From positions 1 through 50,329 of the forward strand of contig VGTI01000027.1 of assembly GCA_016874735.1 (NCBI GenBank): a stretch of DNA of 50,329 bases. The letters run 5' to 3'. Positions 32,081-46,261 of the stretch are shown here, piece after piece; the stretch's first letter is position 1, and each line of letters starts with the position of its first letter. Source of the DNA: Deltaproteobacteria bacterium. GTDB taxonomy: Bacteria; Bdellovibrionota_B; Oligoflexia; Oligoflexales; CAIYRB01. A model generated the notes under the pieces. That model ran no database searches. It was given only the letters and a program-made list of their open reading frames with translations, and was not told where the DNA came from. The position numbers were made by a program, and so were the translations under genes.

Positions 32081-33451
32081 CTAGGCTACTGTTTTCCTTG
32101 CCTTCACCATCGTGCGCTCCGCCGCCGGGGCCGCCGTGACCGCGTTAGGGACGGGCAAGCTCGTGATCAGTAGCACAGACATCACAGCCATGGTGGCTCC
32201 ACCAAACCATGCCACGACCTGCCACACGTTTTGGACGATGATCTGCGATGCTCCTAACCCAGTGAGCACAAGAAGACTCAGCATATGCGCCCAGGCATAG
32301 GGCCGCCCGTAGCGTCGCACCAGCCCGCTTGATACCCGTGGATTTCCCGTGCGTAACATGTGCCATCCAGTCGCCAGAAAAAGCCAGTCCGTTGGCCAGA
32401 ACAGCATCAGATTAGCGTTATGCCAACCGTCCGGGTGCCCCGAGAAAAACCAGTTAAGCAGTAAAGTTGTACCCAAAAGACCGCTGATGAGCGCCCACCA
32501 ACACGTAGCCACTCCGATCGCCCGGTAGGCCAAGATCTCGCGCCGCGGTCTTAGTACAAGCACAGCCACGGCAAACACCAGGCCCAGCGTCACCGGTAAG
32601 GTGAGAGCCAAGAAATCATTAAAGCGCGCCTTAAACACCTCGGGATGATCGAGTAATACCCGTTCATCACTCAGCAGCTTCTGCTGCGGGATGGGTTGCC
32701 CCTGGTCATCAAAGGCCGGCATAGTGAGTAGCCATCGACGCAAATTATGCGGCAAAAACATATCCTCCCAGGCAGAAATCGGGCGATCGATATTACTGTT
32801 CATCAGCACATCAAGCAGTGGAACAATAAACGGCGCGTAAGCTAGATTGCGCCTTACGTAGTCACGAAAGACGCGCTGGGTTGGCTGTGTTGCCAAACGT
32901 TGGTAAAGCTGATTGCCAAGAATATCGTTGAGATAATCTCGCGGTATCGTCGCACAGTTTTTATACCAATATTGGTAAGAAAATTGCCGATGCTCCGGAA
33001 CCGCGTTCCAAGCAATTTTTGTCATGAGTTTATGTTTTTGCTGCGGGGTCAGATTGAGATGATCCATGACGACGCGACGGTCCATCTCGCCGTACAAGGC
33101 GACGTCGCGCTCGAAAGTTCTGACACCCATGCTGTAATCAAGCTGACCGCGAAAGAACTTCCATAAAAAACCAGGATCATCGAAGGAAAACTTACCCCAG
33201 TTGAACGCTACATCGGTGCCCTCGGCGCGGTTCACGACCCTGATGGCTGTATGTCCGAACCGGTCGTTCACCTCAAACCCTGGACCACCCGTCATCAGGT
33301 AGAAATCTAGATCGTTCATGTCCTGCGGAACTTGCGGCACATAGTAAATAGGTTTTGTTTGATTTTCCGCGGCTTGTGCTGGTCGACCCGCGACCGCCAG
33401 GAGGCTCACTCCTACACACCAGGCTATCAATGGCGCCAGTCCTAAATGCAC
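32081..33451 (-). CDS. DUF4105 (Lnb-type) membrane protein
   Basis: A 456-residue protein with a cleavable or anchoring N-terminal segment (APLIAWCVGVSLLAVA), a periplasmic DUF4105 domain over about residues 45-270, and about five hydrophobic segments from 280 on. DUF4105 marks are FGHTAIRVVN near 68 and a Cys in YWYKNCATIPRDYL near 165, with TGGPGFEVNDRF before them. The family is linked to Lnb, the lipoprotein N-acyltransferase of Bacteroidetes, with a Cys/His centre. By that analogy it would act on lipoproteins or lipids in the periplasm; I infer this from the family only. GTG at 33451 has GGGGAGG 5 bases upstream. Confidence 0.8.
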   Translation of the reverse strand: MHLGLAPLIAWCVGVSLLAVAGRPAQAAENQTKPIYYVPQVPQDMNDLDFYLMTGGPGFEVNDRFGHTAIRVVNRAEGTDVAFNWGKFSFDDPGFLWKFFRGQLDYSMGVRTFERDVALYGEMDRRVVMDHLNLTPQQKHKLMTKIAWNAVPEHRQFSYQYWYKNCATIPRDYLNDILGNQLYQRLATQPTQRVFRDYVRRNLAYAPFIVPLLDVLMNSNIDRPISAWEDMFLPHNLRRWLLTMPAFDDQGQPIPQQKLLSDERVLLDHPEVFKARFNDFLALTLPVTLGLVFAVAVLVLRPRREILAYRAIGVATCWWALISGLLGTTLLLNWFFSGHPDGWHNANLMLFWPTDWLFLATGWHMLRTGNPRVSSGLVRRYGRPYAWAHMLSLLVLTGLGASQIIVQNVWQVVAWFGGATMAVMSVLLITSLPVPNAVTAAPAAERTMVKARKTVA

Positions 33452-33651: not shown

Positions 33652-34359
33652 ATGATCGATGGTGATGTCAATCCAATACCCCCAAACCAGGCCCTACCCA
33701 GCCAGGTCGACAAAATCATCACGCTGCAACCCTATATCGGCACCGCTCATCGTCCGGGCAGCGACGCCATGGCTAAACGGTTAGTTGACTTAATCTTGGG
33801 CGGAGCAATTCTCCTTGCTGCTCTCCCCGTCATGCTAGCGCTGATCGTAGCGATTAAAGCCAATGCGGCCGGTCCAATTTTTTTCGTACAACGGCGCGTC
33901 GGTCAGGGCGGCAAAATTTTCAAACTCTACAAGTTCCGCAGCATGATCACCGATGCCGACGCCATCAAATCATCGCTGCAGCTTTTTAACGAAAAAGATG
34001 GGCCCATCTTCAAAATGAAGTCGGACCCTCGCATCACGAGCGTCGGGAGGTTTATGCGCCGCCACAGTCTCGACGAGCTACCGCAATTGTTTAATGTGAT
34101 CACCGGAGACATGAGCCTGGTCGGTCCCCGTCCGCCCTTGCCTGAGGAAGTCCTCAACTACGAATCGTGGCACCTGCGGCGGCTCGCTGTGAAACCCGGC
34201 CTAACCTGCACTTGGCAAATATCGGGACGGAGTCATTTGAGTTTTGACGAATGGATGAAACTCGACATTGCCTACATCGAACAGTGGAGTTTAGGTTTAG
34301 ACCTCACTCTAATTTGGAAGACCATTCGCGTTGTGATCAATGCCGACGGTGCTTATTGA
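33652..34359 (+). CDS. bacterial sugar transferase (undecaprenyl-phosphate glycosyl-1-phosphate transferase)
   Basis: A 235-residue monotopic membrane enzyme that starts a polysaccharide repeat by moving a sugar-1-phosphate to undecaprenyl phosphate. After a short polar leader of about 38 residues comes KRLVDLILGGAILLAALPVM, the re-entrant membrane helix. The catalytic core has QRRVGQGGKIFKLYKFRSM, the DELPQLFNV motif near 145, GDMSLVGPRPPLP, and VKPGLTCTWQISGRS. It is the short form, without the N-terminal membrane domain of WbaP. ATG at 33652 is behind GAGGAATAAGGAA. It lies beside the beta-barrel/lipoprotein genes and converges on them, which suggests a shared envelope-polysaccharide role. 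The 200 bases upstream hold no gene I can see. Confidence 0.9.
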   Translation: MIDGDVNPIPPNQALPSQVDKIITLQPYIGTAHRPGSDAMAKRLVDLILGGAILLAALPVMLALIVAIKANAAGPIFFVQRRVGQGGKIFKLYKFRSMITDADAIKSSLQLFNEKDGPIFKMKSDPRITSVGRFMRRHSLDELPQLFNVITGDMSLVGPRPPLPEEVLNYESWHLRRLAVKPGLTCTWQISGRSHLSFDEWMKLDIAYIEQWSLGLDLTLIWKTIRVVINADGAY

Positions 34360-34387: not shown

Positions 34388-35953
34388 CTAATGGCTGTAG
34401 CTCAATCCCAAAGTAACGTGACTCACCTCGCCGCGACGTCGGACGTACTCGGGATCGAGGGCAAGCGCCAAACGTCCCGTCGCATTTAATGCCCAAAATT
34501 CGTTGAACGGAATTTTGACGGCGCCCTCAGCTAATAACAAGCCCGTTTGGTCTGCGTCAGCACCACCCATGCGGGGCGTCATGAACACGAGATAATAGTC
34601 GCCATTTAGTGTCACATCCCAGCCATTGGCTAACTGCCGGCGCCAACCCATGCCGGCGCCAACGAGTGTCGTAACTTCATAAGTGTCATATTCAGGATTG
34701 GGCTGCGGCTGATTAAAATACTGAACCGGTAGTCTTAGCGTGATTTCATCAGTAGAGGATTCCACGAACGGCCATTTAAAAAGCAATTGGTCCCATTCAT
34801 GGGGCGCATAATATTCTTCCTTGCGCAATTCGATGTGAAATTCAGCGTACCGGGTCAGCTTGCCTCCGATATAGATGGCATCGCGCATATATCCCGACGC
34901 ATCGCTCGTCAGTGGCAACAGCAGTGCGAGTGGCCGTCGATACCCACCTAAAGTCAGCTGGCTCTGCCATTTGAGTGCTATGGTGCCACTCAGATCGCCG
35001 AAAATATTTGAGTCCCCTAAACTAAAGTACCCTATATGCGCTGCGAGTTTGTAAGAGGTAGACTTATTGAGAGTGAATCCAACGGACGCTTCGCTGGCGA
35101 GTTCCAGATCCTGCGTTAGGGCCAAATCTTCAATTTGATGACCAGCGACGCGGACGTCGATTAATCCATTATATGCGGCAAATGCTGTGTGCCGCAGATA
35201 GACGTCGCTGATGGCATGGGCTCCTGCCCCCGCTACCAACGTCCCATCAGATTTAGACGCGACCGCTATGGGATCCGACTGGGTTGATGGTTGACCCCTT
35301 AATTTATGGATTAAATCGTGGCCTCGTTGAACTTGGGATGCAAAACTTGGCCGATTGCGCCAACGACTTGCCGCGGTAAACTGAACATCGGCCGCGACGA
35401 GGTCACCTTGCCAAATCCAAGAATAGAGGAGTTCCGCCGTGACGTCGTCGTCGTCAGGTCTGAGCTTTAAGTAAGTTTGATAAATGTCTCGCCCCCGACC
35501 AAACTGCCCTTTGCGCGTCAGCGACCGTGCTAGCACAAGTAAGGCATCGGCGTTATTTGCGTAGCGGACATCATGCGCGTCTACTTGACGGAGCAAGTTA
35601 TAATAATCACCAGCTTTAGCCTTAGCGATGAATGGATCCGCCTGACTCGCGCCAGTGAGCTTGACATCTAATGCCCGTGCAGCTGTTTGGTTTCCCGTCA
35701 TACTTAGTAAAAATGCCTGCCACTGCACCACTTGCTCCTGCAAGGCTGGACACTGGAGTAGACTAGCACCCTCATTAGTGGCGGCGACACTCAGCACCTG
35801 GGCCGCCGCAACGTAGCTGTCCAAACTCTGGCGGCCACAGTTTAAAGGCGCCGCAAGCGCCGCCTCAGTAACGCCGCACACAAGGCCGCTGATTAGGAGA
35901 GTTCGCTGTAAAAAAACGCGTAAGATCATTGCTAAGTCCCTTTTGCTCACCAT
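34388..35953 (-). CDS. TPR-containing outer-membrane beta-barrel protein, export-porin-like
   Basis: A 521-residue exported protein. Residues 1-35 are a signal peptide (TLLISGLVCGVTEAALAA). Residues about 40-220 are helical repeats of TPR type, with LARSLTRKGQFGRGRDIYQTYLKLRPDD the clearest split motif. Residues about 240-521 are a beta-barrel (alternating strands, Tyr/Trp girdles, LTLGGYRRPL, VTLNGDYYLVF) ending in VTLGLSYSH. Periplasmic TPRs plus a barrel is the plan of PgaA, BcsC and PelB, which pass polysaccharide out, though this barrel is of a size to be judged by modelling. The start ATG at 35953 overlaps the stop of the upstream gene by one base (TGATG). It is the last of three coupled genes. 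Confidence 0.75.
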   Translation of the reverse strand: MVSKRDLAMILRVFLQRTLLISGLVCGVTEAALAAPLNCGRQSLDSYVAAAQVLSVAATNEGASLLQCPALQEQVVQWQAFLLSMTGNQTAARALDVKLTGASQADPFIAKAKAGDYYNLLRQVDAHDVRYANNADALLVLARSLTRKGQFGRGRDIYQTYLKLRPDDDDVTAELLYSWIWQGDLVAADVQFTAASRWRNRPSFASQVQRGHDLIHKLRGQPSTQSDPIAVASKSDGTLVAGAGAHAISDVYLRHTAFAAYNGLIDVRVAGHQIEDLALTQDLELASEASVGFTLNKSTSYKLAAHIGYFSLGDSNIFGDLSGTIALKWQSQLTLGGYRRPLALLLPLTSDASGYMRDAIYIGGKLTRYAEFHIELRKEEYYAPHEWDQLLFKWPFVESSTDEITLRLPVQYFNQPQPNPEYDTYEVTTLVGAGMGWRRQLANGWDVTLNGDYYLVFMTPRMGGADADQTGLLLAEGAVKIPFNEFWALNATGRLALALDPEYVRRRGEVSHVTLGLSYSH

Positions 35954-37095
35954 CAGAAAACACGCTCAACACTGAGACGCACAGCTTGTCTCTGCGCATC
36001 AACACCGTCTTTAAGTTGGATATATTCCCCGTTGAAAGACACAGCGAATTTATATCCAGCTGGAGCAATACCAAATTGGGGATCAATCGCGGGTTCAAAC
36101 GCATAGCGAATGCCACCAGAGGCGCTAGCCGCCGGTGTCCGGCCTGCAAATCCCTGCACCCAGCTTTCATCACGATATTCCACATTGGCCTCAATACCCT
36201 GTGTCGGGGTGAGGAGGTATTTGGTTTTAGCTGTCAGGACATCACTTACAGTGACAACTAAACTGCCGAGTGGTCTAGTCACGCCACGTTGCCAGCCTAT
36301 CCGCCATGAACTTGTAGCACCGTAGTTTGCCAAGGTCAGACCAGCTGTGCCGGTCTCTGAGGGTCCGCTATCGCTCTCGAATATGAGCACACCGCCTTTT
36401 GCCTCTAGGCTGGCAGTGGGGCTTAGTGCATATATGAGGGTAGCTTTCGGTCCACCAGTAGCCACATCAACCAAATCACTGATAAACCTCTGCTGCACGC
36501 CGCCTATGCGCATCTTCGTTCTGGCATCTAGTTCATATTCCAAGTCTACATCACCAAAGTACGCCTCAAAAATACTGGTACCGCGATCTAAACTGCTAGC
36601 AATAAAGTAGGCGATAATGCTGCTGCGGTTCGTAATGGCAAGATAATGATCGCTACTCACGGCACCGTAAAGGTAGCGTTTTCTATCGTCGCTGCCCAAA
36701 GTTTGATTGTCCCACTGCTCGACCAAAGGACGACGCTCGAGACCGGTGGAATCATAGGATGATGTTCCGGTTAGTTCCATATGGTGAGTAAACCGTTGCC
36801 CCTCGATTTTGACACTGGGCTTGGCACTGGCCGTGGCGTAGCGCCCCTCTGCCAGCGGTGCTATCCCCGCTTGACCTGAAAGGTCTAGCCCCCAGGTCCA
36901 GTTGCCACGTTGCACTTGGGAATTCGAGTTAGATTTGAGATTCCAAAAATGCCAATAGGCATCGTTGATTCCCTGAGCGCCGCTAGAGCTCTGATTCATA
37001 CCCTCGTAACTGAGCTCGAGGCTGGTTTGTTGATGATCAGCGTAGGCCTTAGTCACAGAGAGCCACAGGCACAAGATTGTTAGTAGTCGCTGCAC
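35953..37095 (-). CDS. outer-membrane beta-barrel protein, function unknown
   Basis: A 380-residue exported protein. Residues 1-19 are a signal peptide (LLTILCLWLSVTKAYA). All the rest is alternating beta structure with charged turns (TSLELSYEGMN, YLYGAVSSDHYLAI, GIEANVEYRDESWV), and it ends in AVRLSVERVF, a canonical barrel end with terminal Phe. Size fits a barrel of about 16 strands. I recognise no exact family. GTG at 37095 has GGAG 7 bases upstream, inside the end of the lipoprotein gene (16-base overlap); its own stop overlaps the next start. Being locked between a deacetylase-like lipoprotein and a TPR/barrel gene, it most likely works with them in one envelope system. Confidence 0.7.
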   Translation of the reverse strand: MQRLLTILCLWLSVTKAYADHQQTSLELSYEGMNQSSSGAQGINDAYWHFWNLKSNSNSQVQRGNWTWGLDLSGQAGIAPLAEGRYATASAKPSVKIEGQRFTHHMELTGTSSYDSTGLERRPLVEQWDNQTLGSDDRKRYLYGAVSSDHYLAITNRSSIIAYFIASSLDRGTSIFEAYFGDVDLEYELDARTKMRIGGVQQRFISDLVDVATGGPKATLIYALSPTASLEAKGGVLIFESDSGPSETGTAGLTLANYGATSSWRIGWQRGVTRPLGSLVVTVSDVLTAKTKYLLTPTQGIEANVEYRDESWVQGFAGRTPAASASGGIRYAFEPAIDPQFGIAPAGYKFAVSFNGEYIQLKDGVDAQRQAVRLSVERVF

Positions 37096-37901
37096 CCTTG
37101 ATCTCCACCTACAGCGCCTATCGTGGCACCTGATGATTTAAGTGCTGTCTGGATTGTCGAGACGGCATCCAGGCGCACAAACTGATAGTTCGCCTGTTTG
37201 AGCTCGGGTAGCAGTTTTTGCAGCAGTTCCGCACTGCGCGCATCGTCCGCATGGAGGCGGACGATACCCTTATCCGCTTTCTCAATGGCCGCAAGGTAGG
37301 CAGCGGCGCAGTCACTAACGCTCGTGCCTGCTTGCCAACAGGATGCGTCGTCTACCTGATTGGGCGTTTGATCACCTATATCCCACCCTATAGGACCAAC
37401 GTACCGACTTAAACCGGACTTGTTTAGATCGAGCGCAATTTGATCCGAGAGATTGATACTACCGATAGCTCGCAGCAGATATATATTACCGGTAACATAA
37501 GGCTGAATCAGCGCATCGGTCTTGCGTACCTCGCGCTGTGCGTCGAGGGACGATTCCAGGGGGCTATCCGTATACCCCTGATTAGCCACGATGTGGCCGT
37601 GCGCTTTGAGTGCAGCCAGCGTCGTCTCGCGACCGACGATATGTTTACCACTCACAAAAAAGGCCGCCTGCACCGAAGCCGCCGTCAATGCAGCGTCGAT
37701 GGCCAATGTGCCGTCCCCAGGCCCCCCACTGAAGCTTAGCGCCAACTGTTTGGCCTCGAGCGACGTGCCGGTGTAGGCCTGCGACCTTATCCCAATGCCG
37801 CTGGCACAGGTCTTCCCCACCGAGAAAAAGTCACATCCCGCCAGCAGCCATACCAATCCCACCGAGAGCACCGAGAGCGGTACTGTCCGCATTGCCACCA
37901 T
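37080..37901 (-). CDS. NodB-fold (polysaccharide deacetylase) lipoprotein, active site lost
   Basis: A 273-residue predicted lipoprotein (lipobox LLAGC near residue 23). Residues about 50-255 follow the NodB deacetylase fold from end to end, but motif by motif the catalytic residues are changed. TFDDGP is LSFSGGP (both Asp lost), NHTYSHPxL is NQGYTDSPL (both His lost), and RPPYG is RAIGS. Only the last motif (IVRLHADD) keeps its His. It therefore cannot bind the usual Asp-His-His metal and is probably a pseudoenzyme that still binds sugar. PgaB and PelA are active relatives in polysaccharide export. ATG at 37901 opens a run of three overlapping genes. The divergent repeat lipoprotein begins 245 bases away. 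Confidence 0.78.
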   Translation of the reverse strand: MVAMRTVPLSVLSVGLVWLLAGCDFFSVGKTCASGIGIRSQAYTGTSLEAKQLALSFSGGPGDGTLAIDAALTAASVQAAFFVSGKHIVGRETTLAALKAHGHIVANQGYTDSPLESSLDAQREVRKTDALIQPYVTGNIYLLRAIGSINLSDQIALDLNKSGLSRYVGPIGWDIGDQTPNQVDDASCWQAGTSVSDCAAAYLAAIEKADKGIVRLHADDARSAELLQKLLPELKQANYQFVRLDAVSTIQTALKSSGATIGAVGGDQGCSDY

Positions 37902-38146
37902 AGCGTCTGGCCTCCATCTGCCAAAATCGGAAAAACTTCTTTTGATTTTTTGGACTTGTGCCTGTCGAAAATTCTAGCAGGTGTGGTGCCTGTAGGCACC
38001 GAAAAGGCCATCGCCCCCCCTTGGGAACGTCGCTAATCTGCCGAATTTGTTGTGCTTTAAATGATTCCCGCAAGTCCTGGCACTGGCCTTGCACAGTTAG
38101 GAGCAAAGCGGCTGCCCACGGTGGGCCTGCCGCGGAATAGTGATTC
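37902..38146. promoter_or_regulatory. divergent promoter region with a perfect palindrome
   Basis: The 245 bases between the two divergent lipoprotein genes contain GGTGCCT-gt-AGGCACC at 37985-38000, a perfect 16-base palindrome that would suit a dimeric regulator acting on both sides. I could not fix -35/-10 pairs. No gene is seen in the gap. Confidence 0.4.
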
Positions 38147-40702
38147 ATGCCGCGCCTTTCTTTTCACCTACGCATGCTACCGACCAGACTCCAAGTGGTG
38201 GGGGCTCTGATTGCTGCATTGGTTATGGTGAGCGGATGTTTGCGCAAGCCACAGAATTCCTTTGTGAACGCAGCGCCCTCCTCGTTAACCATCCGTGGTG
38301 CCGTCTTGGATGCAGACCAGCCACCAAAGACTGGCGTCCAGATTTACTTGGGTTCAGCTACGACAGCGATCGCCCGGGCGGGGCAAGACGGCAGATACAC
38401 CGTAACTTTGGACGCCGCAGCACTCACGCAGCTGCAAGGCGAACTGCGCTCCCAGACAATCCGCCTTTACGCTGTCTCTGACGATACTGAGGCGCTCCAA
38501 GCAGCTAGCGCTCCCATCAACCTAGCAACGCGCGGGGACATCGAATTAGCCACCATGACGCTCGCAAAGGCAGCAACCATTCATGGTCAGGTGCTACAGA
38601 TGACGAAAGCCCAGCAACAGAGCCAGCCAGCCGCACGGGTGCGTGTCATCGCTGGTCACAGCGTCACGACGACGGGAGATGACGGACGATTCGTCATCAA
38701 AAATGTCGCCGCTGGTAACATCGCCGTGATCGCGGGACCAAATTTAAGCCACGCGGCAACGCAAGCTTTGACGGTCAAGCCCGGCGAGGAACGGCAGCTA
38801 AAAAAGCCGCTCGTGATTTTCCCCCTCGGTGGCCCGCGGGGGCTTGTCGTTCCTGACACCGACATCTCGGTCAACGATCTCGTCAAGCAGGGAAAACCCT
38901 ACACCCGCACATTCGGTGTCGTTGCAGATGAGGACGCAAGATACATCCGTTTTAGTGCAGATGAGAAAGAGCTAGCTTCCGATGGCAGCAGCACGGCTAG
39001 TTGGCAAAAATTATCTGATAGCTTTGATTTCGATTTTCAAAAAACGGGCGCATCGAACCTCTACTATCAATTCGCCGATGCCGGGCGCAAACAGTTTAGT
39101 GACGTGTACACACTAGCCTTGACGCTGGACAATTTTGGCGCCACGACTGGCCTCGTGCTGGGCGATGGATCGGGGCTACTGACCTCAAACGTTGCACCGG
39201 TAAGTGTCGACGTGCCGCCCGCAGCCGTCAGGATGCGCATGGCTCCGTCAGTAGATTTGCTGCAAACCGCGCCTTGGCAGATGCCGCAACCTAGTTTTGT
39301 ATTTCCGTTTCCCCTGAGGCGAGATCCCTCTACCAATTTCCTCCAGGCTTTCGGTACGAAGACACTATATTTGCAGTACTTAGATGCAAGCGGCATGGTC
39401 AGCCCTACCTATACGGCAGTCGCCACGCTCAATATGTTTCCCCCGGTCGTTAGTGGCCAAGTGTTCACGGTAAACGGTGGCGCTGCGGTTTCCCCCACAA
39501 GACTCGTGCAACTCAGTATCAACGTCCCCGCTAATGCACATGAAATGCTTATCTTCGAAGCCGACACACCCATCACCAACAACATTTGGCTAGCGGCACA
39601 GCCGACCAGCTTTTACACTTTTACTTCAACAGGGAGTAAATCGCTGTACTTGCAATTCCGCACCGTCGATCAGGCGGTGAGTCCTGTTTACAAATATCCA
39701 CTCATTGTGCAGCCCTTTCCGGACCCAACTCTAGGCGGCTTCTTGATTAACGACGGCGCACCACTTGCGTTATCGCCGCATTTAACGGTGCGCCTCAAAA
39801 TACCACCAACCGCGACCCAATTTCGCATCATCGACAGTGCGCAGATGGCTCAGCTTAATATCGCTAACTTGGATCTTTGGGGATCACCCGGCAACGCGAT
39901 GGCCGCGGCCAGCGTTGTGCCATGGTTAGAACCACGACCGCTGTTTATTTATACACCGCGCACATCTCGTGGTGTGACTACCATTTATGTTCAATACAAG
40001 AATGCAGATCACGATGTGTCGCCAGTCTACCAACAGACCATCGACATCGATCCCGAACCAGTCGGATCGGGTTACTTTGCCATCAATCCTGAACCACTGA
40101 CGGGCGCTTCGGCCCTGGTGAGCACCTCATCCCTAGTGATGTTGCGCGTCGTCCCTCCACCGGGATATCTGGGTGGCGCTATGATCGTTTATGAGGATCG
40201 TCTGCCAGAGCCACTCGCAACCGCCAATATTATTCCGGTGCCAGTGCCAGATCCCGTGACCGGCGCTATTCCCCTAGTGCCTTATGTTCTGCGTGGAACC
40301 GGTGCTCATAATGTGTACGTCCGCTTTATGACTGTGGATCAAAATAATGTCCCGGTCATTGCCACCCTAAGCCCTACTGCCTATTTGCGCACAGTCGTCC
40401 TAGATCCTTTCCCACTGAATGCAGTGGCGGTGACGATTAATGAAGGTGCCGCCAATCTCACCGCCGCTGAAGCCTTGGACGCAAGATTAAATCTCAGGGC
40501 GCCCGATAACGTCACCAAAATGCGCTATGTGGTCGACGATCAGCCCCAACTCGGTGCCATCAGCATGCAGCCATTTGCCGCCACAGTGACAAATCTATCG
40601 CTGCCCACGGCGGCCGGACTGCACGCCGTTTATGTGCAGTTCGAAAATAGCGATGGTTATCAAAGTCCGGTTTACGAGACGGTCGTGACGGTCTTACCGT
40701 AA
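38147..40702 (+). CDS. large repeat-containing surface lipoprotein
   Basis: An 851-residue predicted lipoprotein (lipobox VMVSGC near residue 31). Two carboxypeptidase-regulatory-like beta-sandwiches come first: LTIRGAVLDAD near 48 and ATIHGQVLQMTKA near 145, each followed by a DGRYTV or DGRFVI strand. Then come six Ig-like repeats of about 93-113 residues. Each ends with a strand of the form L/V-Y-x-Q-F/Y: LYYQF near 304, LYLQY near 406, LYLQF near 499, IYVQY near 612, VYVRF near 722 and VYVQF near 827, most followed by SPVY. It has no catalytic motif, so adhesion, scaffolding or sugar binding is likely. ATG at 38147 has a weak ribosome binding site; an internal ATG at 38174 is possible. It is divergent from the barrel/lipoprotein operon. 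Confidence 0.75.
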   Translation: MPRLSFHLRMLPTRLQVVGALIAALVMVSGCLRKPQNSFVNAAPSSLTIRGAVLDADQPPKTGVQIYLGSATTAIARAGQDGRYTVTLDAAALTQLQGELRSQTIRLYAVSDDTEALQAASAPINLATRGDIELATMTLAKAATIHGQVLQMTKAQQQSQPAARVRVIAGHSVTTTGDDGRFVIKNVAAGNIAVIAGPNLSHAATQALTVKPGEERQLKKPLVIFPLGGPRGLVVPDTDISVNDLVKQGKPYTRTFGVVADEDARYIRFSADEKELASDGSSTASWQKLSDSFDFDFQKTGASNLYYQFADAGRKQFSDVYTLALTLDNFGATTGLVLGDGSGLLTSNVAPVSVDVPPAAVRMRMAPSVDLLQTAPWQMPQPSFVFPFPLRRDPSTNFLQAFGTKTLYLQYLDASGMVSPTYTAVATLNMFPPVVSGQVFTVNGGAAVSPTRLVQLSINVPANAHEMLIFEADTPITNNIWLAAQPTSFYTFTSTGSKSLYLQFRTVDQAVSPVYKYPLIVQPFPDPTLGGFLINDGAPLALSPHLTVRLKIPPTATQFRIIDSAQMAQLNIANLDLWGSPGNAMAAASVVPWLEPRPLFIYTPRTSRGVTTIYVQYKNADHDVSPVYQQTIDIDPEPVGSGYFAINPEPLTGASALVSTSSLVMLRVVPPPGYLGGAMIVYEDRLPEPLATANIIPVPVPDPVTGAIPLVPYVLRGTGAHNVYVRFMTVDQNNVPVIATLSPTAYLRTVVLDPFPLNAVAVTINEGAANLTAAEALDARLNLRAPDNVTKMRYVVDDQPQLGAISMQPFAATVTNLSLPTAAGLHAVYVQFENSDGYQSPVYETVVTVLP

Positions 40703-40805: not shown

Positions 40806-43769
40806 ATGGACGGTATCTTTAAACAAATTCGTGCATGTGCCAGCCCGACCACGTGGTCCAAAGGTGTCGAGCTTGCGCGTCAGGACGCAGTGACTGGCGA
40901 GCAGCTTGATGACGAGATCAAGTTGCGTGTGGCTAGTTCTGGAGGAATCAGTCCGACCGTGACCTTAGTGCCCGCCGATGAGGATTGGCACTGCACTTGT
41001 GGTAGTGATGAGGATCCCTGCGCCCATGTCACAGCGGCGGTAATCGCTTGGAAGCGCGCGTGGGAGTCGGGCCAGCCGCTGCCCAAATCGGCAAAGCACA
41101 GTGGCCAGTTGGAGTATCGCTTCCGCCGTGTCCCAGGCGGCCTCAGCTTTGAGCGCGTCGTGGTAAGCGATGCTTTAGCCACCCCTCTACAGGTATCGTT
41201 AGCAGCACTGACCTCTGGACGCGTCGCCGGGCCTAGTCTCACGGCGACTGCGGACGATATGGCGGTGGATCTAGCACTAGGTCATCACAGGCAGGGTCTA
41301 CTACCAGCCGCGGTCATACCGCCTGTGCTGCGAGCCATGACCCCGGCCCTTAAGGTCACGCTAGACGGGGAACCTGTAACTATTGACGCCAAGCCCGTAG
41401 GACTTGCCGCCGAGGTCAGGGACGAGGGTCCGGGGGTCCGGGTACGGATTATTCAAGATCCAGGGATCACCGAGCTTTTTGATAATGGCATCGCTCTTTA
41501 CGACGGTACGCTGCGACCGGTCATACTACCGCAACTGAGCCCGTCCGCGCGTGAACTCGTACGCGACGGGCGTTTTTTTGGTCTACGGGAATTAGCTGAT
41601 CTTGTGGCGACGACACTACCTGATCTGGCTGCGAAAATGCCGTTACTCACGCGCAGTCGCAATTTGCCTTCAAGTCGTGAATATCTGCGCCCCGAGCTCG
41701 AGATCACCGCCGTGAAGCAAGGGTTGCAGCTCAGGCTTGAGGCCGCCATCACTTACGGGCGGGAGCCCTTGGCCCGCTTGCGTGCAGGTCGTTTCACGCC
41801 ACTCGGTGATACCGTGCCAGTGCGCGACATGGCTCGCGAGGCCGAACTCACCGAGCAACTCCAGCGCCTGTGGAGCATGGATCTTGAGGCACCTGTCGTG
41901 CTATCTGGTGAGGCGGCTGTGGCGATGGCCGGGCGTTTGGCGCGGTTTCCTGGCGTCATCAGCGGTGACGGTCTGGCGGCGTTTCGTCTGTACAGCAAAC
42001 TTGAGCCTCGCTTGGAGTGGGCCGGAGATGCGCCTTCTGCGACAGGCTCTCCAAACTTCACGTTCGCCGCCGGAACTTCAAGCCCCGGCGAAGTCAAACA
42101 TGCCACCGCAGACGCAGTAGCCGCGGCCTGGCAACGCGGTGACAGTCTGGTGCCCTTAACTGACGGTGGTTTCGCCCCGCTACCACGAGATTGGCTACGG
42201 CAGCATGGCGATAAGCTACTTGATTTTCTAGCCTGCCGTGGTGAGAACGCAACCACGCCTGCGCGTCTTTCGTGGCCTCACTTGGCCGACTTAGCGGCCT
42301 CGATTGACGGCGGCGCTGAGCAACTCCCGCCCCAGTTCAGAGACTTTTGTCATGGTCTACAAAAAGGCGAGGCCGCACTGGATCTGACAGCCGCTACACC
42401 TGCCGCACTGCGAGCGACCCTACGGCCATATCAGCTACGCGGCTATCAATGGCTACGTTGGCTGCGCGGTCTTGGTCTAGGGGCCTTGCTTGCTGATGAC
42501 ATGGGTCTTGGTAAGACCGTGCAGACCTTGGCGGTGATCGGGCGGAGAACCTTGATTGTGGCTCCGACTAGCGTGCTTTTTAATTGGGCTAAGGAGGCCC
42601 AGCGTTTTCGTCCTGATCTGAAGATTTGCGTCTATCATGGCCCCAGTCGTAGTCTTGACGACGGTGCTGCATTGGTGATCACCAGCTACGCTCTGCTCAG
42701 GTTAGATCTAGCTAAATTTTTGGGCGTGACTTGGGAAACTCTGGTGCTGGACGAAGCCCAGACGCTGAAGAATGCGTCGAGTCAAGCGGCCAAGGCGGCG
42801 CGCCAAATCGCGGCAGGTTTCAAGCTAGGGCTTAGCGGCACACCAGTAGAGAACCGTCTCGATGACCTCTGGAGCTTGATGCACATTTTGAATCCGGGGC
42901 TACTTGGCGATCGGCGTTACTTCCAAGATCGCTATGCACGTCCCATCGAGCAGGGTGACACGGTGCGCACCGAAGCCCTGCGCAGCCGCATCGCACCCTT
43001 TGTATTGCGACGGCGCAAGGCCGATGTGCTTACCGATCTACCGCCACGCACAGAGACCCTCCTTTATGCGGAGCTTTCTCCTGCCGAGCGCGATCGTTAC
43101 GATATCGTTCGGGCCGCGAGCCGCAGGGAAATTATCGAGCAACTTCAGAGTCCCAATGGGGACGGCGACGGCGTCAACATGATCGCAGCGCTAGAGGCGC
43201 TGTTGCGGCTTCGCCAGGCTGCGTGCCATCCTGATCTTCTGCCAGGTGTCAGTGGCGAGGCCTCGAGTAAATTAGCGTTGCTTGTCGAGACTTTGCAGAC
43301 ATCAACTCAGAATGGCCATAAGACTCTAGTATTTTCGCAGTGGACTGGCTTTCTTGACCTAATGGAACCAGCGCTTGAATGTGCTGGCCTGGCTTTTCTA
43401 CGTTTAGACGGCAGTACGCGCGACCGCAGTGGCGTGGTTGAGAGTTTTCAAAAATCTGATGGGCCACCAATCCTGCTGATCTCTCTCAAGGCCGGTGGCG
43501 TTGGCCTAAACCTAACTGCTGCGGATCACGTGATTATTGCTGATCCCTGGTGGAATCCTGCAACGGAAGATCAGGCGGCGGATCGTGCTCACAGGATAGG
43601 CCAAGATCGCCCTGTATTGATCCAAAGATTAGTTGCTCTGGATACGGTCGAGGAGCGCATCTTGCAGCTACAGGAGCGCAAGCGTCAGTTAGCAGCGGCA
43701 GCTATCGACGGTCAGAAAATGACCGGTGCCAGCATAACTAAAGAAGATTTGTTGGCACTCATCGACTAA
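40806..43769 (+). CDS. SWIM zinc finger / SNF2-family helicase
   Basis: A 987-residue ATP-driven nucleic-acid motor. Residues about 60-85 are a SWIM zinc finger (WHCTCGSDEDPCAHVTAAV; CxC...CxH). Residues about 100-530 are a poorly conserved region. Residues about 535-985 are an SNF2 (RapA/HepA-like) engine: DDMGLGKTVQTL near 563, LDEAQTLKN near 647, LSGTPVENRLDDLW near 678, FSQWTGFLDLME, LKAGGVGLNLTAADHVI and WWNPATEDQAADRAHRIGQ near 920. SWIM plus SNF2 is a known bacterial pairing; the exact target, DNA or a transcription complex, is not known. ATG at 40806 lacks a clear ribosome binding site. A strong hairpin follows. Confidence 0.92.
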   Translation: MDGIFKQIRACASPTTWSKGVELARQDAVTGEQLDDEIKLRVASSGGISPTVTLVPADEDWHCTCGSDEDPCAHVTAAVIAWKRAWESGQPLPKSAKHSGQLEYRFRRVPGGLSFERVVVSDALATPLQVSLAALTSGRVAGPSLTATADDMAVDLALGHHRQGLLPAAVIPPVLRAMTPALKVTLDGEPVTIDAKPVGLAAEVRDEGPGVRVRIIQDPGITELFDNGIALYDGTLRPVILPQLSPSARELVRDGRFFGLRELADLVATTLPDLAAKMPLLTRSRNLPSSREYLRPELEITAVKQGLQLRLEAAITYGREPLARLRAGRFTPLGDTVPVRDMAREAELTEQLQRLWSMDLEAPVVLSGEAAVAMAGRLARFPGVISGDGLAAFRLYSKLEPRLEWAGDAPSATGSPNFTFAAGTSSPGEVKHATADAVAAAWQRGDSLVPLTDGGFAPLPRDWLRQHGDKLLDFLACRGENATTPARLSWPHLADLAASIDGGAEQLPPQFRDFCHGLQKGEAALDLTAATPAALRATLRPYQLRGYQWLRWLRGLGLGALLADDMGLGKTVQTLAVIGRRTLIVAPTSVLFNWAKEAQRFRPDLKICVYHGPSRSLDDGAALVITSYALLRLDLAKFLGVTWETLVLDEAQTLKNASSQAAKAARQIAAGFKLGLSGTPVENRLDDLWSLMHILNPGLLGDRRYFQDRYARPIEQGDTVRTEALRSRIAPFVLRRRKADVLTDLPPRTETLLYAELSPAERDRYDIVRAASRREIIEQLQSPNGDGDGVNMIAALEALLRLRQAACHPDLLPGVSGEASSKLALLVETLQTSTQNGHKTLVFSQWTGFLDLMEPALECAGLAFLRLDGSTRDRSGVVESFQKSDGPPILLISLKAGGVGLNLTAADHVIIADPWWNPATEDQAADRAHRIGQDRPVLIQRLVALDTVEERILQLQERKRQLAAAAIDGQKMTGASITKEDLLALID

Positions 43770-44416: not shown

Positions 44417-46261
44417 ATGCCCATGCGCCGTCTCGTCAGTTTTGCTGTATTCGGCTTTTTTCTATGTATTTTGGCAGCTTCGCCTCGCTCATTAGAGGCT
44501 GCACCAGATCAGCGGAGTCCGCGCCTGGTGGTCCATCTCCTAAACTATCTGGCCAAAGACTACGGAGGCGCCGTAGGCGCCAACGGTGTGGTCCTATCGG
44601 AGAGTGAGTTCGCAGAGCAGAAGGAATTCAGCCGCGACGTACTAGAAGTCGCGCGCACCCTGCCAGACCTAGCCAGCGATCCATCAATTATCAGTGATCT
44701 CGAACTCTTAGCTAAAACCATTGCCGACCGGGGTGCAGCCACCACGGTGGCCGGCCTAGCAACTAGTCTGCAAGTGCGCGTCATCAAGGCCACCAACATG
44801 CAGACTGCTCCCAGTGCGCCGGTAGATGTGACACAGGGTAAGGCCGTCTTTGAGACATACTGCGTCAGTTGTCACGGAGCTGGTGGTCGCGGCGACGGCC
44901 CCGCCACAGCGGGAACCGGCCCTCGCATGGATCCTCCTCCGGCCAATCTAGCCGATCAAAACCGCATGCACGGCATTGCGGCCATGAACATCTACGACAG
45001 TGTGAAGTTGGGTATACCTGGCACGGCGATGGTGGCACTCCCCCATCTTAGTGACCAGGACGCATGGAATGTCGCCCATTATGTGTTGACCCTATCTGCC
45101 ACTAACGAGGGGACCGCGCCGCACGCTGCAGAGGCCCTAAATCTGGCTAGGTCGAGCCTTGATGGTGCCGCCCGCTCCTACAAAACAGGGGACTTCCGTA
45201 CGGCCAAGGCCTTGGCACTCAGAGCTTATCTTGACGGTATTGAACCCATCGAGCCCCGCATGAGGGCATCCGATCCGGCCGCAGCATTAGCCTTAGAGGA
45301 AAAAATGGCGGCCGTCCGCGCTGCCATCCAGGCACGCGTTTCTGAGGGAGCCCTCGACACCGCCATCACTGAGGCTAAAACGGAGCTAGATCGCGCTCAA
45401 ACATTGCTGCAGGGTAACGAAATGAACCCAAGCGTTGCCTTCATGGCGGCATCATCGATTCTCCTGCGCGAGGGTTTCGAGGCGGTGCTGATGATCCTTG
45501 CGCTGCTTGGTGTATCACGTGCCATGCACTCCAAAACTGCAGCCCTGTGGATTCATGCCGGCTGGATGGCAGCGGTCGGGATTGGTGTGGCAGCTTGGTT
45601 CGGCGCCGGAGCTCTCCTAGACATCAGTGGTGCTAGCAGGGAAATGCTGGAGGCCGTCACTTCGCTGATCGCCGTGGTTGTTTTACTCGGCGTGGGGTTT
45701 TGGCTTCACAGTCGTACCGAAATCGGGCGCTGGAATAAGTTTCTTAAAATAAAAGTGCGCCGCGCAGTCAAAGAAAAAAATCATCTGGGACTAGCATCGA
45801 TCTCGTTTATCGCTGCTTTTAGAGAAGCGCTCGAGACTGTGCTATTTCTGAGAGCGATTTGGGTGGATAGCGGTGAGCAGGCCAAAGCTGCTCTGGGCCT
45901 CGGCGTAGGCCTGACTACGGCGGTCATCCTTCTTGCATCCTGGGCACTTCTGCGGTTTAGCGCTCGTATTCCAATCCGCCGTTTGTTTGGTGTCTCCGCA
46001 GTCATTATGGCGGTTCTTGCCTTAATACTCACAGGTAAGGGGCTGCACGCTCTGCAGGAAGCAGGTCTCCTCACGATCACCACGCCACGGCTGGCGCTCC
46101 GGTGGGACTTGTTTGGCGTGTTTCCCACCTATGAAACACTGCTGGCCCAGCTTGTACTACTTGTGACCATGGTGTGGCTGTGGCAATACGGGCGACGCCC
46201 ATCAAAAAATTCAGGGCAGACACTCGCGCGTGATATTTCTGATACCGCTACGAGTCACTAA
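44417..46261 (+). CDS. cytochrome c / FTR1 family iron permease
   Basis: A 614-residue inner-membrane iron importer. After a signal peptide (FAVFGFFLCILAASP), a periplasmic part holds a c-type haem site CVSCHGAGGRGDG near residue 148 and axial Met candidates beyond it (GIPGTAMVALPHLSDQD). The C-terminal part has about seven membrane segments with both FTR1 motifs, LREGFEAVLM near 352 and FREALETVLFL near 470. Fusion of cytochrome c to FTR1 is known; the haem probably oxidises ferrous iron or takes its electrons before transport. The Fur box upstream supports an iron-starvation role. ATG at 44417 has GGAG 9 bases upstream. The last 51 bases overlap the convergent pepQ gene. Confidence 0.92.
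   Translation: MPMRRLVSFAVFGFFLCILAASPRSLEAAPDQRSPRLVVHLLNYLAKDYGGAVGANGVVLSESEFAEQKEFSRDVLEVARTLPDLASDPSIISDLELLAKTIADRGAATTVAGLATSLQVRVIKATNMQTAPSAPVDVTQGKAVFETYCVSCHGAGGRGDGPATAGTGPRMDPPPANLADQNRMHGIAAMNIYDSVKLGIPGTAMVALPHLSDQDAWNVAHYVLTLSATNEGTAPHAAEALNLARSSLDGAARSYKTGDFRTAKALALRAYLDGIEPIEPRMRASDPAAALALEEKMAAVRAAIQARVSEGALDTAITEAKTELDRAQTLLQGNEMNPSVAFMAASSILLREGFEAVLMILALLGVSRAMHSKTAALWIHAGWMAAVGIGVAAWFGAGALLDISGASREMLEAVTSLIAVVVLLGVGFWLHSRTEIGRWNKFLKIKVRRAVKEKNHLGLASISFIAAFREALETVLFLRAIWVDSGEQAKAALGLGVGLTTAVILLASWALLRFSARIPIRRLFGVSAVIMAVLALILTGKGLHALQEAGLLTITTPRLALRWDLFGVFPTYETLLAQLVLLVTMVWLWQYGRRPSKNSGQTLARDISDTATSH

Follow-up and report, generated by a model that had tools for sequence, protein, structure and literature searches.

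A catalytically dead NodB-fold lipoprotein and a TPR-barrel protein in the probable outer-membrane half of a Wzx/Wzy-dependent exopolysaccharide pathway of an Oligoflexales bacterium

Introduction

A translocon composed of an OPX protein and a beta-barrel has been described in the Wzx/Wzy-dependent pathway (PMC9601211, PMC9603273). In EpsY/EpsX (also named WzaX/WzpX) of Myxococcus xanthus and VpsN/VpsM of Vibrio, a short OPX protein made of periplasmic domains only is coupled to a separate barrel. PgaA of the PNAG system, BcsC of the cellulose system and PelB of the Pel system combine TPRs with a 16-stranded barrel, and PgaA and PelB are paired with the deacetylase-fold proteins PgaB and PelA, respectively. 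In PgaA, the TPR region is the binding site for the PgaB deacetylase domain (PMC9384988). OPX-based and TPR-barrel-based polysaccharide exits have been described as separate. A few full-length PgaA/BcsC-like barrels are encoded beside OPX genes; their cooperation was described as puzzling, because the TPR might block OPX (PMC9603273). Here, we describe a locus that most likely belongs to an export machine joining parts of both kinds of exit. It lies in a 50,329-nucleotide stretch of DNA (the window; contig C27 of genome G000).

Organization of the locus

Three genes on the minus strand encode a lipoprotein of NodB fold whose active site is dead (NODB, 37080-37901, 273 aa), an outer-membrane beta-barrel of about 18 strands by model (BARREL, 35953-37095, 380 aa) and a secretin-like protein with a TPR-like domain and a 16-stranded barrel (TPRB, 34388-35953, 521 aa). 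NODB and BARREL overlap by 16 bases (37080-37095), and BARREL and TPRB by 1 base (35953). An initiating sugar-phosphate transferase gene on the plus strand (33652-34359), which is EpsZ/WbaP-like and covers the catalytic half only, converges on the three genes, and the gene for an 851-residue repeat lipoprotein (REPLIPO, 38147-40702, plus strand) diverges from them. The coordinates of this arrangement, as reported in the initial annotation, are confirmed. The 245-bp divergent intergenic region (37902-38146, no strand) presumably contains the promoters of both units, and a promoter consensus scan of this region gave chance-level results. The overlap lengths differ among species, being 16 and 4 bases in G004 and replaced by small gaps in G002. 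The order and direction of the genes are preserved across species, and purifying selection on them is strong; the gene arrangement is real, and chance is ruled out. A Lnb-like gene is a constant neighbour of the locus within the genus.

The NodB-fold lipoprotein

NODB has the lipobox LAGC and matches Polysacc_deac_1 (PF01522) of Pfam at 5.8e-07. The motifs of active CE4/NodB enzymes are absent from it: S, G, Q and D replace the catalytic D, D, H and H of the motif-1 Asp pair and the motif-2 His pair, in agreement with the earlier description of the deacetylase as dead. An active deacetylase is ruled out by the lost metal site. None of the 16 TPR-barrel-linked NodB rows has the metal Asp or either metal His residue, and nearly all NodB paralogues outside this group retain these residues; dead and intact proteins are split in the tree on a single branch with a support of 100/99. 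The active site was most likely lost long ago. Between the window and G004, pN of NODB is 0.111 and pS is 0.847, dS of this pair being saturated so that no dN/dS ratio can be given, and NODB changes less than the neighbouring SNF2 helicase (pN of 0.111 versus 0.139). Since NODB is strongly conserved despite the lost metal site, it probably serves as a scaffold and not as an enzyme. Both dead NODB and TPRB are present in 14 genomes, dead NODB alone in none, TPRB alone in 1 and neither in 41, and the association is significant at the genus level (p = 1.5e-5).

Like PgaB and PelA, NODB is a deacetylase-fold lipoprotein encoded beside a TPR-barrel protein. Unlike PgaB, it is catalytically dead and consists of the NodB domain only (273 aa), with the glycoside hydrolase domain absent. 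The lipidated Cys of the window protein is followed by Asp at +2. In E. coli, Asp at this position retains a lipoprotein in the inner membrane, a rule that may not be that of this host. BA0330 and BA0331 of Bacillus anthracis are NodB-fold lipoproteins with a structural role, and deacetylase activity has been undetected in them (PMC4505593); unlike NODB, they retain the Asp-His-His metal site and belong to a Gram-positive wall.

The two barrels

TPRs of the 521-aa TPRB are found in Pfam only below threshold, and a sequence search against solved structures returned nothing useful, fold comparison alone being informative. The AlphaFold2 model (pLDDT 83.8) shows a TPR-like domain at residues 41-218 and a 16-stranded barrel at residues 238-520, and its pTM of 0.55 leaves the placement of the TPR relative to the barrel unsure. 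The top five PDB matches in Foldseek are all polysaccharide secretins (BcsC, BcsC, BcsC, PgaA and PelB; best values of 7.6e-16 for BcsC, 1.9e-09 for PgaA and 2.4e-08 for PelB), so that the PgaA/PgaB-like plan seen in the initial annotation proves real. A phylum-wide search of 58 genomes added no firm new holder.

BARREL has no Pfam match over its 380 aa. Its AlphaFold2 model, built from an alignment of 6 sequences, has about 18 strands (pLDDT 79), and the best structural matches in Foldseek are OprD/OccK porins (E 2.5e-10), with AlgE and PgaA not among the top 50. BARREL is present in 6 of 6 genomes of the genus and in 0 of 50 others. Each genome has one copy, placed between NODB and TPRB wherever the locus of a genus member is complete. 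The extra separate barrel that had been pointed out as a distinguishing part is thus present but confined to this genus, and its model resembles a generic porin with 18 strands; BARREL is rejected as a conserved component of the system beyond the genus. Other barrel-like proteins, judged by eye from their sequences, are encoded near TPRB in system B of G001 and G003 and in G033 and G036. Profile comparison of BARREL with the barrel-like TPRB neighbours of other genomes revealed no homology.

The repeat lipoprotein and the sugar transferase

REPLIPO has the lipobox VSGC and matches PF13620 (CarboxypepD_reg, 4.2e-09) in two stretches; these two domains are followed by about six Ig-like repeats, seen as LYxQF..SPVY-type repeats in the C-terminal half. 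REPLIPO homologues diverge from NODB in all 12 examined loci showing the pair. The sugar transferase matches Bac_transf (PF02397) at 1.4e-65 and the NCBIfam models EPS_sugtrans and EpsZ at 6.9e-86 and 5.2e-83, both below cut-offs and over the catalytic half of the models only. It adjoins the locus in all six genomes of the genus. Of the two flanking genes, REPLIPO travels with the unit across the order, and the sugar transferase neighbours it in this genus alone.

Linkage to OPX, co-polymerase and Wzy genes

In relatives from another family, REPLIPO diverges from dead NODB-TPRB, and this unit immediately adjoins the genes encoding a short OPX, a Wzc-like co-polymerase (PCP) and a Wzy polymerase. 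In family f6, the genes are co-directional in the order NODB-TPRB-OPX-(PCP) and overlap or nearly touch. In G036, NODB and TPRB overlap by 14 bases and TPRB and OPX by 1, and OPX and PCP are 4 bases apart; the arrangement in G030 and G033 is similar. TPRB lies at most five genes from OPX in G011, G022, G030, G033, G036 and system B of G001 and G003; in these last two genomes, OPX, TPRB and dead NODB are all present in two copies. TPRB is adjacent repeatedly to OPX, PCP, Wzy, Wzx and WecG genes in several genera. The TPRB-linked OPX copies group in a single subtree (85/80), separate from most of the remaining OPX; two long-branch rows without TPRB (G015 and G007) belong to this subtree as well. 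The TPRB/OPX association is modest at the genus level (p = 0.016), the genomes being non-independent and the counted TPRB matches of G041 and G054 weak. No OPX was detected in G010 and G041 despite TPRB and dead NODB, the G010 assembly being fragmented and 87% complete.

In the window genome, TPRB and the single OPX gene lie on different contigs (C27 and C5), outside the five-gene distance. This OPX has 210 aa, within the limit of 280 aa for a short OPX, contains Poly_export and SLBB, ends at the SLBB domain and has no C-terminal membrane helix. The PCP-Wzy-OPX cluster on C5 is homologous to the f6 cluster; its Wzy matches Wzy_EPS at 2.5e-26, its OPX has a match of 3.7e-21, and its PCP is homologous to the f6 PCPs, whose joint profile with it matches VpsO at 3.4e-06. 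The flippase and glycosyltransferases are at a third locus on C2, which carries EpsA-, EpsU- and Wzx_EPS-like genes (1e-32 for Wzx_EPS). The Wzx/Wzy gene set of initiating transferase, Wzx, Wzy, co-polymerase and OPX is therefore complete, with all pathway gene matches below NCBIfam equivalog cut-offs. No synthase gene is present in the window locus, and the nearest case to a synthase in the same locus is a GT2-WecG fusion encoded close to TPRB in G011. The missing synthase had been taken as a mark of novelty, which does not hold: OPX, co-polymerase and Wzy are joined to the unit in relatives and are elsewhere in this genome.

Plausible mechanism of polysaccharide export

Since the f6 relatives join the unit to OPX, PCP and Wzy, the orthologues of which are at other loci here, the locus is likely to encode that half of a Wzx/Wzy-dependent exopolysaccharide pathway which acts at the outer membrane and the surface, with the other genes elsewhere in the genome. 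It is not a self-contained new system; the earlier view that no named system has this composition gives way to a translocon of the described OPX/beta-barrel kind, and the polysaccharide export reading itself is supported by the secretin fold of TPRB and by the OPX/PCP/Wzy neighbours in relatives. Because the only OPX protein has no membrane-spanning part, it must borrow a barrel, and there is a good chance that the PgaA/PgaB-like pair occupies the position of EpsX in the known composite translocon.

Judging from family matches and neighbourhood, the EpsZ-like transferase would begin the repeat unit on undecaprenyl phosphate, the C2 glycosyltransferases and Wzx would assemble and flip it, and Wzy and the Wzc-like co-polymerase of C5 would produce the chain, which would be passed to the short periplasmic OPX. 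The structure models and neighbourhood suggest that TPRB may be the outer-membrane channel, its TPR domain acting as a periplasmic docking and guide surface. By analogy and co-conservation, dead NODB may sit on the TPR domain, in parallel with the PgaB deacetylase domain on PgaA, and bind or gate the chain there as a scaffold without enzyme activity, and REPLIPO may retain or shape the polymer at the surface. We infer that the translocon parts contact one another and, by orthology across the different contigs, that TPRB and OPX would be linked in the window genome.

The pathway genes match EpsZ, EpsY, Wzy_EPS, Wzx_EPS, EpsA and EpsU models, below equivalog cut-offs. Unlike in EpsY/EpsX and VpsN/VpsM, however, the OPX-linked barrel has 16 strands and its own TPR domain in place of the 18-stranded barrel without TPR of the composite translocon, it is accompanied by two lipoproteins, dead NODB and REPLIPO, and in the genus the window genes and OPX are at separate loci. 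Unlike in synthase-dependent systems, the pathway neighbours of TPRB are OPX, PCP and Wzy and no synthase.

Alternative explanations

BARREL, with about 18 strands like EpsX (PMC9601211), might itself be the channel, TPRB being an accessory secretin or chain guide, or there might be two separate exits. The position of BARREL between NODB and TPRB in complete genus loci at one copy per genome and the unrelated barrel-like proteins near TPRB in other genomes are consistent with this. However, BARREL is restricted to one genus, the constant partner of OPX is TPRB, the best structural matches of BARREL are ordinary OprD/OccK porins, and its model is built from 6 sequences; we regard this explanation as unlikely. 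A synthase-dependent Pga/Pel-like system independent of OPX, in which the C2 GT2 would act as the synthase and the window genes would supply the export part, would agree with the TPRB architecture and fold, with the PgaB-like domain of NODB and with the QRRRW motif and PgaC match (1.1e-18) of this GT2. The GT2, however, matches EpsU far better than PgaC (247 versus 67 bits) and adjoins Wzx, and in f6 genomes TPRB is linked with OPX, PCP and Wzy, components that synthase systems, to our knowledge, do not use; this explanation is quite improbable.

Most structurally solved NodB homologues deacetylate peptidoglycan or chitin, which, together with the structural role of BA0330/BA0331 (PMC4505593) and the Lnb-like neighbour, raises the possibility of another envelope role in peptidoglycan or lipoprotein handling, the proximity to exopolysaccharide genes being incidental. 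The direct adjacency to OPX/PCP/Wzy/Wzx/WecG genes that recurs in several genera and the closeness of the TPRB fold to polysaccharide secretins make this very improbable. In XrtA/PEP-CTERM loci, genes for sugar transferases, chain-length proteins and polysaccharide deacetylases are found close to those for exosortases (PMC1569441). The OPX of the window genome is best matched to TIGR03027, and one C2 gene matches exosortase-associated hydrolases. Such a locus is nevertheless rejected, since exosortase (PF09721) is missing from the window genome and most TPRB genomes, with matches only in G001, G003 and the TPRB-less G016.

Implications

Among the papers searched, none combined an inactive polysaccharide deacetylase with OPX. 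Beyond the probable outer-membrane half of the Wzx/Wzy-dependent pathway, it is tentatively possible, though somewhat short of probable as a whole, that the order has an exit type of its own, in which OPX hands the chain to a synthase-type TPRB, an anciently inactivated PgaB-like lipoprotein links the two as a fixed adaptor or gate, and the co-polymerase carries a dead BY-kinase-like domain, so that scaffolds instead of enzymes would run the machine. At least two families conserve the pairing of TPRB with OPX, and in some members the genes overlap; dead NODB, whose distribution across genomes nearly matches that of TPRB, is a concrete candidate for the missing adaptor. These observations suggest that a PgaB-like domain can persist after its catalytic activity is lost; such persistence would support the view that the domain has a structural role.

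Gene Order of the Locus in Relatives

The initial annotation read 34388-40702 as a possible new envelope-polysaccharide export locus around a dead deacetylase, and its five genes lie where it placed them, with the overlaps of 16 and 1 bases confirmed. They are NODB (37080-37901; NodB/polysaccharide deacetylase fold family), BARREL (35953-37095; 380 amino acids, no family match), TPRB (34388-35953; 521 amino acids, sub-threshold TPRs only), REPLIPO (38147-40702; an 851-residue lipoprotein with two CarboxypepD_reg stretches at its start) and GTF (33652-34359; Bac_transf family, EpsZ-like). Fifty-six genomes of the class were searched with NODB, TPRB, the outer-membrane polysaccharide export (OPX) family and others, and the neighbourhoods were read by all-against-all comparison. 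The order REPLIPO, NODB, BARREL, TPRB and GTF, with the first and last genes pointing against the middle three, is found in the genus members G000 (the window's own genome), G002, G004 and G005. In G003, a gene for an acyl-ligase/ketosynthase/acyltransferase of 1801 amino acids (L035 10526-15931) lies between NODB and BARREL, and BARREL and TPRB are separated by the gene for a WecG-type glycosyltransferase; the arrangement in G001 is the same as far as contigs allow, with the large gene again after NODB (L034).

In another family (f6; G011, G022, G030, G033 and G036), REPLIPO diverges from NODB and TPRB, OPX is directly next or one gene further, and in most of these genomes a Wzc-like co-polymerase (PCP) then comes after OPX; Wzy, Wzx or a fused glycosyltransferase lies among these genes or alongside them. 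NODB/TPRB and TPRB/OPX overlap by 14 bases and 1 base in G036, where the PCP gene begins 4 bases on, and in G033 a distance of 15 bases separates TPRB from the end of OPX (7326-7931 of L041). REPLIPO diverges from NODB at 12 loci, and so the repeat lipoprotein travels with the set, whereas the sugar transferase does so inside the genus but not beyond it.

Other genes adjoin these loci. In G033 (L041 11584-17015) and G036 (L043 11140-16592), a conserved trio of S-adenosylmethionine-decarboxylase-like, LptD_2-like (about 1100 amino acids) and Mur-ligase-like proteins adjoins the repeat lipoprotein. In each of the six genus genomes, the gene immediately past the sugar transferase encodes an Lnb-like lipoprotein N-acyltransferase (32081-33451, minus strand; NCBIfam 7.1e-49, under the cut-off); the nearby locus encodes two lipoproteins. 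An SNF2 helicase of 987 amino acids with a SWIM-like zinc finger (40806-43769, plus strand) comes after the repeat lipoprotein in the genus, with one extra gene between them in G003. By eye, the 614-residue protein at 44417-46261 (plus strand) combines a cytochrome c-type CxxCH region with a membrane part that resembles iron permeases and carries REGFE/REALE motifs.

A Constrained Pseudo-Deacetylase

The deacetylase is dead, as had been claimed: none of the 16 TPRB-linked rows of the NODB alignment retains the metal Asp or either metal His, and most have also lost the catalytic base Asp. Six of the seven other rows retain D, D, H and H, L052 being minus one His, and a pattern search or visual reading finds the motifs in the paralogues L053-L057. 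The two sets split on one branch of the NODB tree (support 100/99). The dead set, but not the other, has an invariant extra Cys at window residue 32; in the dead set a Cys close to the C terminus, at 270, is likewise invariant, and the two perhaps form a disulfide. Compared with G004, NODB has a pN of 0.111 with synonymous sites saturated, and its neighbours have higher values (SNF2 helicase, 0.139; Lnb, 0.143); its dN/dS between G002 and G005 is 0.20. Judged from sequence, NODB is an old pseudo-enzyme under constraint rather than a gene in decay. An Asp at +2 of a lipoprotein keeps it in the inner membrane in E. coli. NODB has this residue in the window and in G004, which would mean inner-membrane retention if the E. 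coli rule applies and is a reason for caution about the mechanism proposed below.

Copy Number and Co-occurrence

G001 and G003 each carry OPX, dead NODB and strong TPRB in two copies, and G000, G002 and G004 have a single copy of each gene; a second NODB match in G002 (L057) keeps the TFDD motif and the His pair by eye. In G005, NODB, TPRB and a strong OPX match each occur once. The second paralogous set of G001 and G003 (L037, L039) lies beside a GH9 cellulase, with an Omp85 protein and a TamB-like protein downstream of NODB. The OPX tree groups the TPRB-linked copies, those of genus types A and B together with five from f6, in one subtree (support 85/80) that also contains two long-branch rows, G007 and G015, and most remaining f6 OPX proteins lie outside it. 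Dead NODB and TPRB occur together in 14 of the 56 genomes, with none having dead NODB only, one TPRB only and 41 neither (p = 1.5e-5 collapsed to genera), and TPRB and OPX give 13 with both, 2 TPRB only, 7 OPX only and 34 neither (p = 0.016 collapsed to genera); these counts, which include weak TPRB matches of G041 and G054 and ignore kinship within the order, support the association without deciding it.

The Remaining Pathway Genes

The single OPX gene of the window's genome is on contig C5, beside genes homologous to those for the co-polymerase and Wzy (NCBIfam Wzy_EPS, 2.5e-26) in f6. The OPX protein (pepcterm_export, 4.5e-32; EpsY, 1.3e-26) has 210 residues and terminates at the SLBB domain. 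A C-terminal helix of the Wza type would have no space there, which puts the protein in the short OPX class, dependent on a separate barrel (PMC9601211, PMC9603273). On contig C2 are genes for an EpsU-like GT2, a WecG transferase resembling EpsA, and a flippase that resembles Wzx_EPS and is one of two flippase-family members in the genome; Bac_transf genes likewise number two, GTF included. Together, GTF and the C5 and C2 genes resemble the Myxococcus EPS pathway, with matches below cut-off; the exit in Myxococcus is the EpsX/EpsY pair. No exosortase was detected in the window's genome, yet a C2 protein of 608 residues (L150 12219-14045) matches each of the two exosortase-A-associated hydrolases (8.4e-32 and 4.4e-23). 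The co-polymerase (L076 5900-7873) has a C-terminal kinase-like domain, and a joint profile of the co-polymerases from f6 and the window's genome matches VpsO at 3.4e-06. By eye, the kinase-like domain seems to be without a Walker A motif in the window's genome and f6 relatives, as in the pseudokinase EcpK (PMC12004946), and so the pathway may contain two pseudo-enzymes.

The Two Barrels and a Possible Export Mechanism

The TPRB model (14 sequences; pLDDT 83.8, pTM 0.55) has helices at 41-218 followed by 16 strands at 238-520. Its five best PDB matches, BcsC (9b8a, 9b8h, 6tzk), PgaA (4y25; TM 0.67 on target) and PelB (9h80), are all polysaccharide secretins and rank ahead of any general porin. 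The BARREL model (6 sequences; pLDDT 79) has about 18 strands, its first structural matches are OprD/OccK porins, and among the 56 genomes it is present in the genus only. Because of these respective matches, the alternative that the barrels are ordinary porins may hold for BARREL but does not fit TPRB.

The pathway type and the principle of a short OPX plus a barrel are already known. Eight full-length PgaA/BcsC-like barrels have been counted near class 3 OPX genes, and their relation to those genes was called unclear (PMC9603273, Table 1). We found no description of a conserved combination that joins a short OPX and a TPR-barrel to a dead NodB lipoprotein and a repeat lipoprotein; the genomes searched for it were those of one class. 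On the established gene content, order, residue loss, constraint and predicted folds, TPRB would be the outer-membrane channel serving the OPX protein. The membrane-proximal TPR region of PgaA binds the deacetylase domain of PgaB (PMC9384988); from this precedent, and from the similar occurrence of TPRB and dead NODB across genomes, we infer that NODB may be a scaffold sitting on the TPR domain of TPRB, and TPRB, OPX and NODB would then be in contact. The Ig-like repeats of REPLIPO number about one in several f6 members and about six in the genus, and it is plausible that this lipoprotein would be located at the surface, bind the polymer and retain it there.
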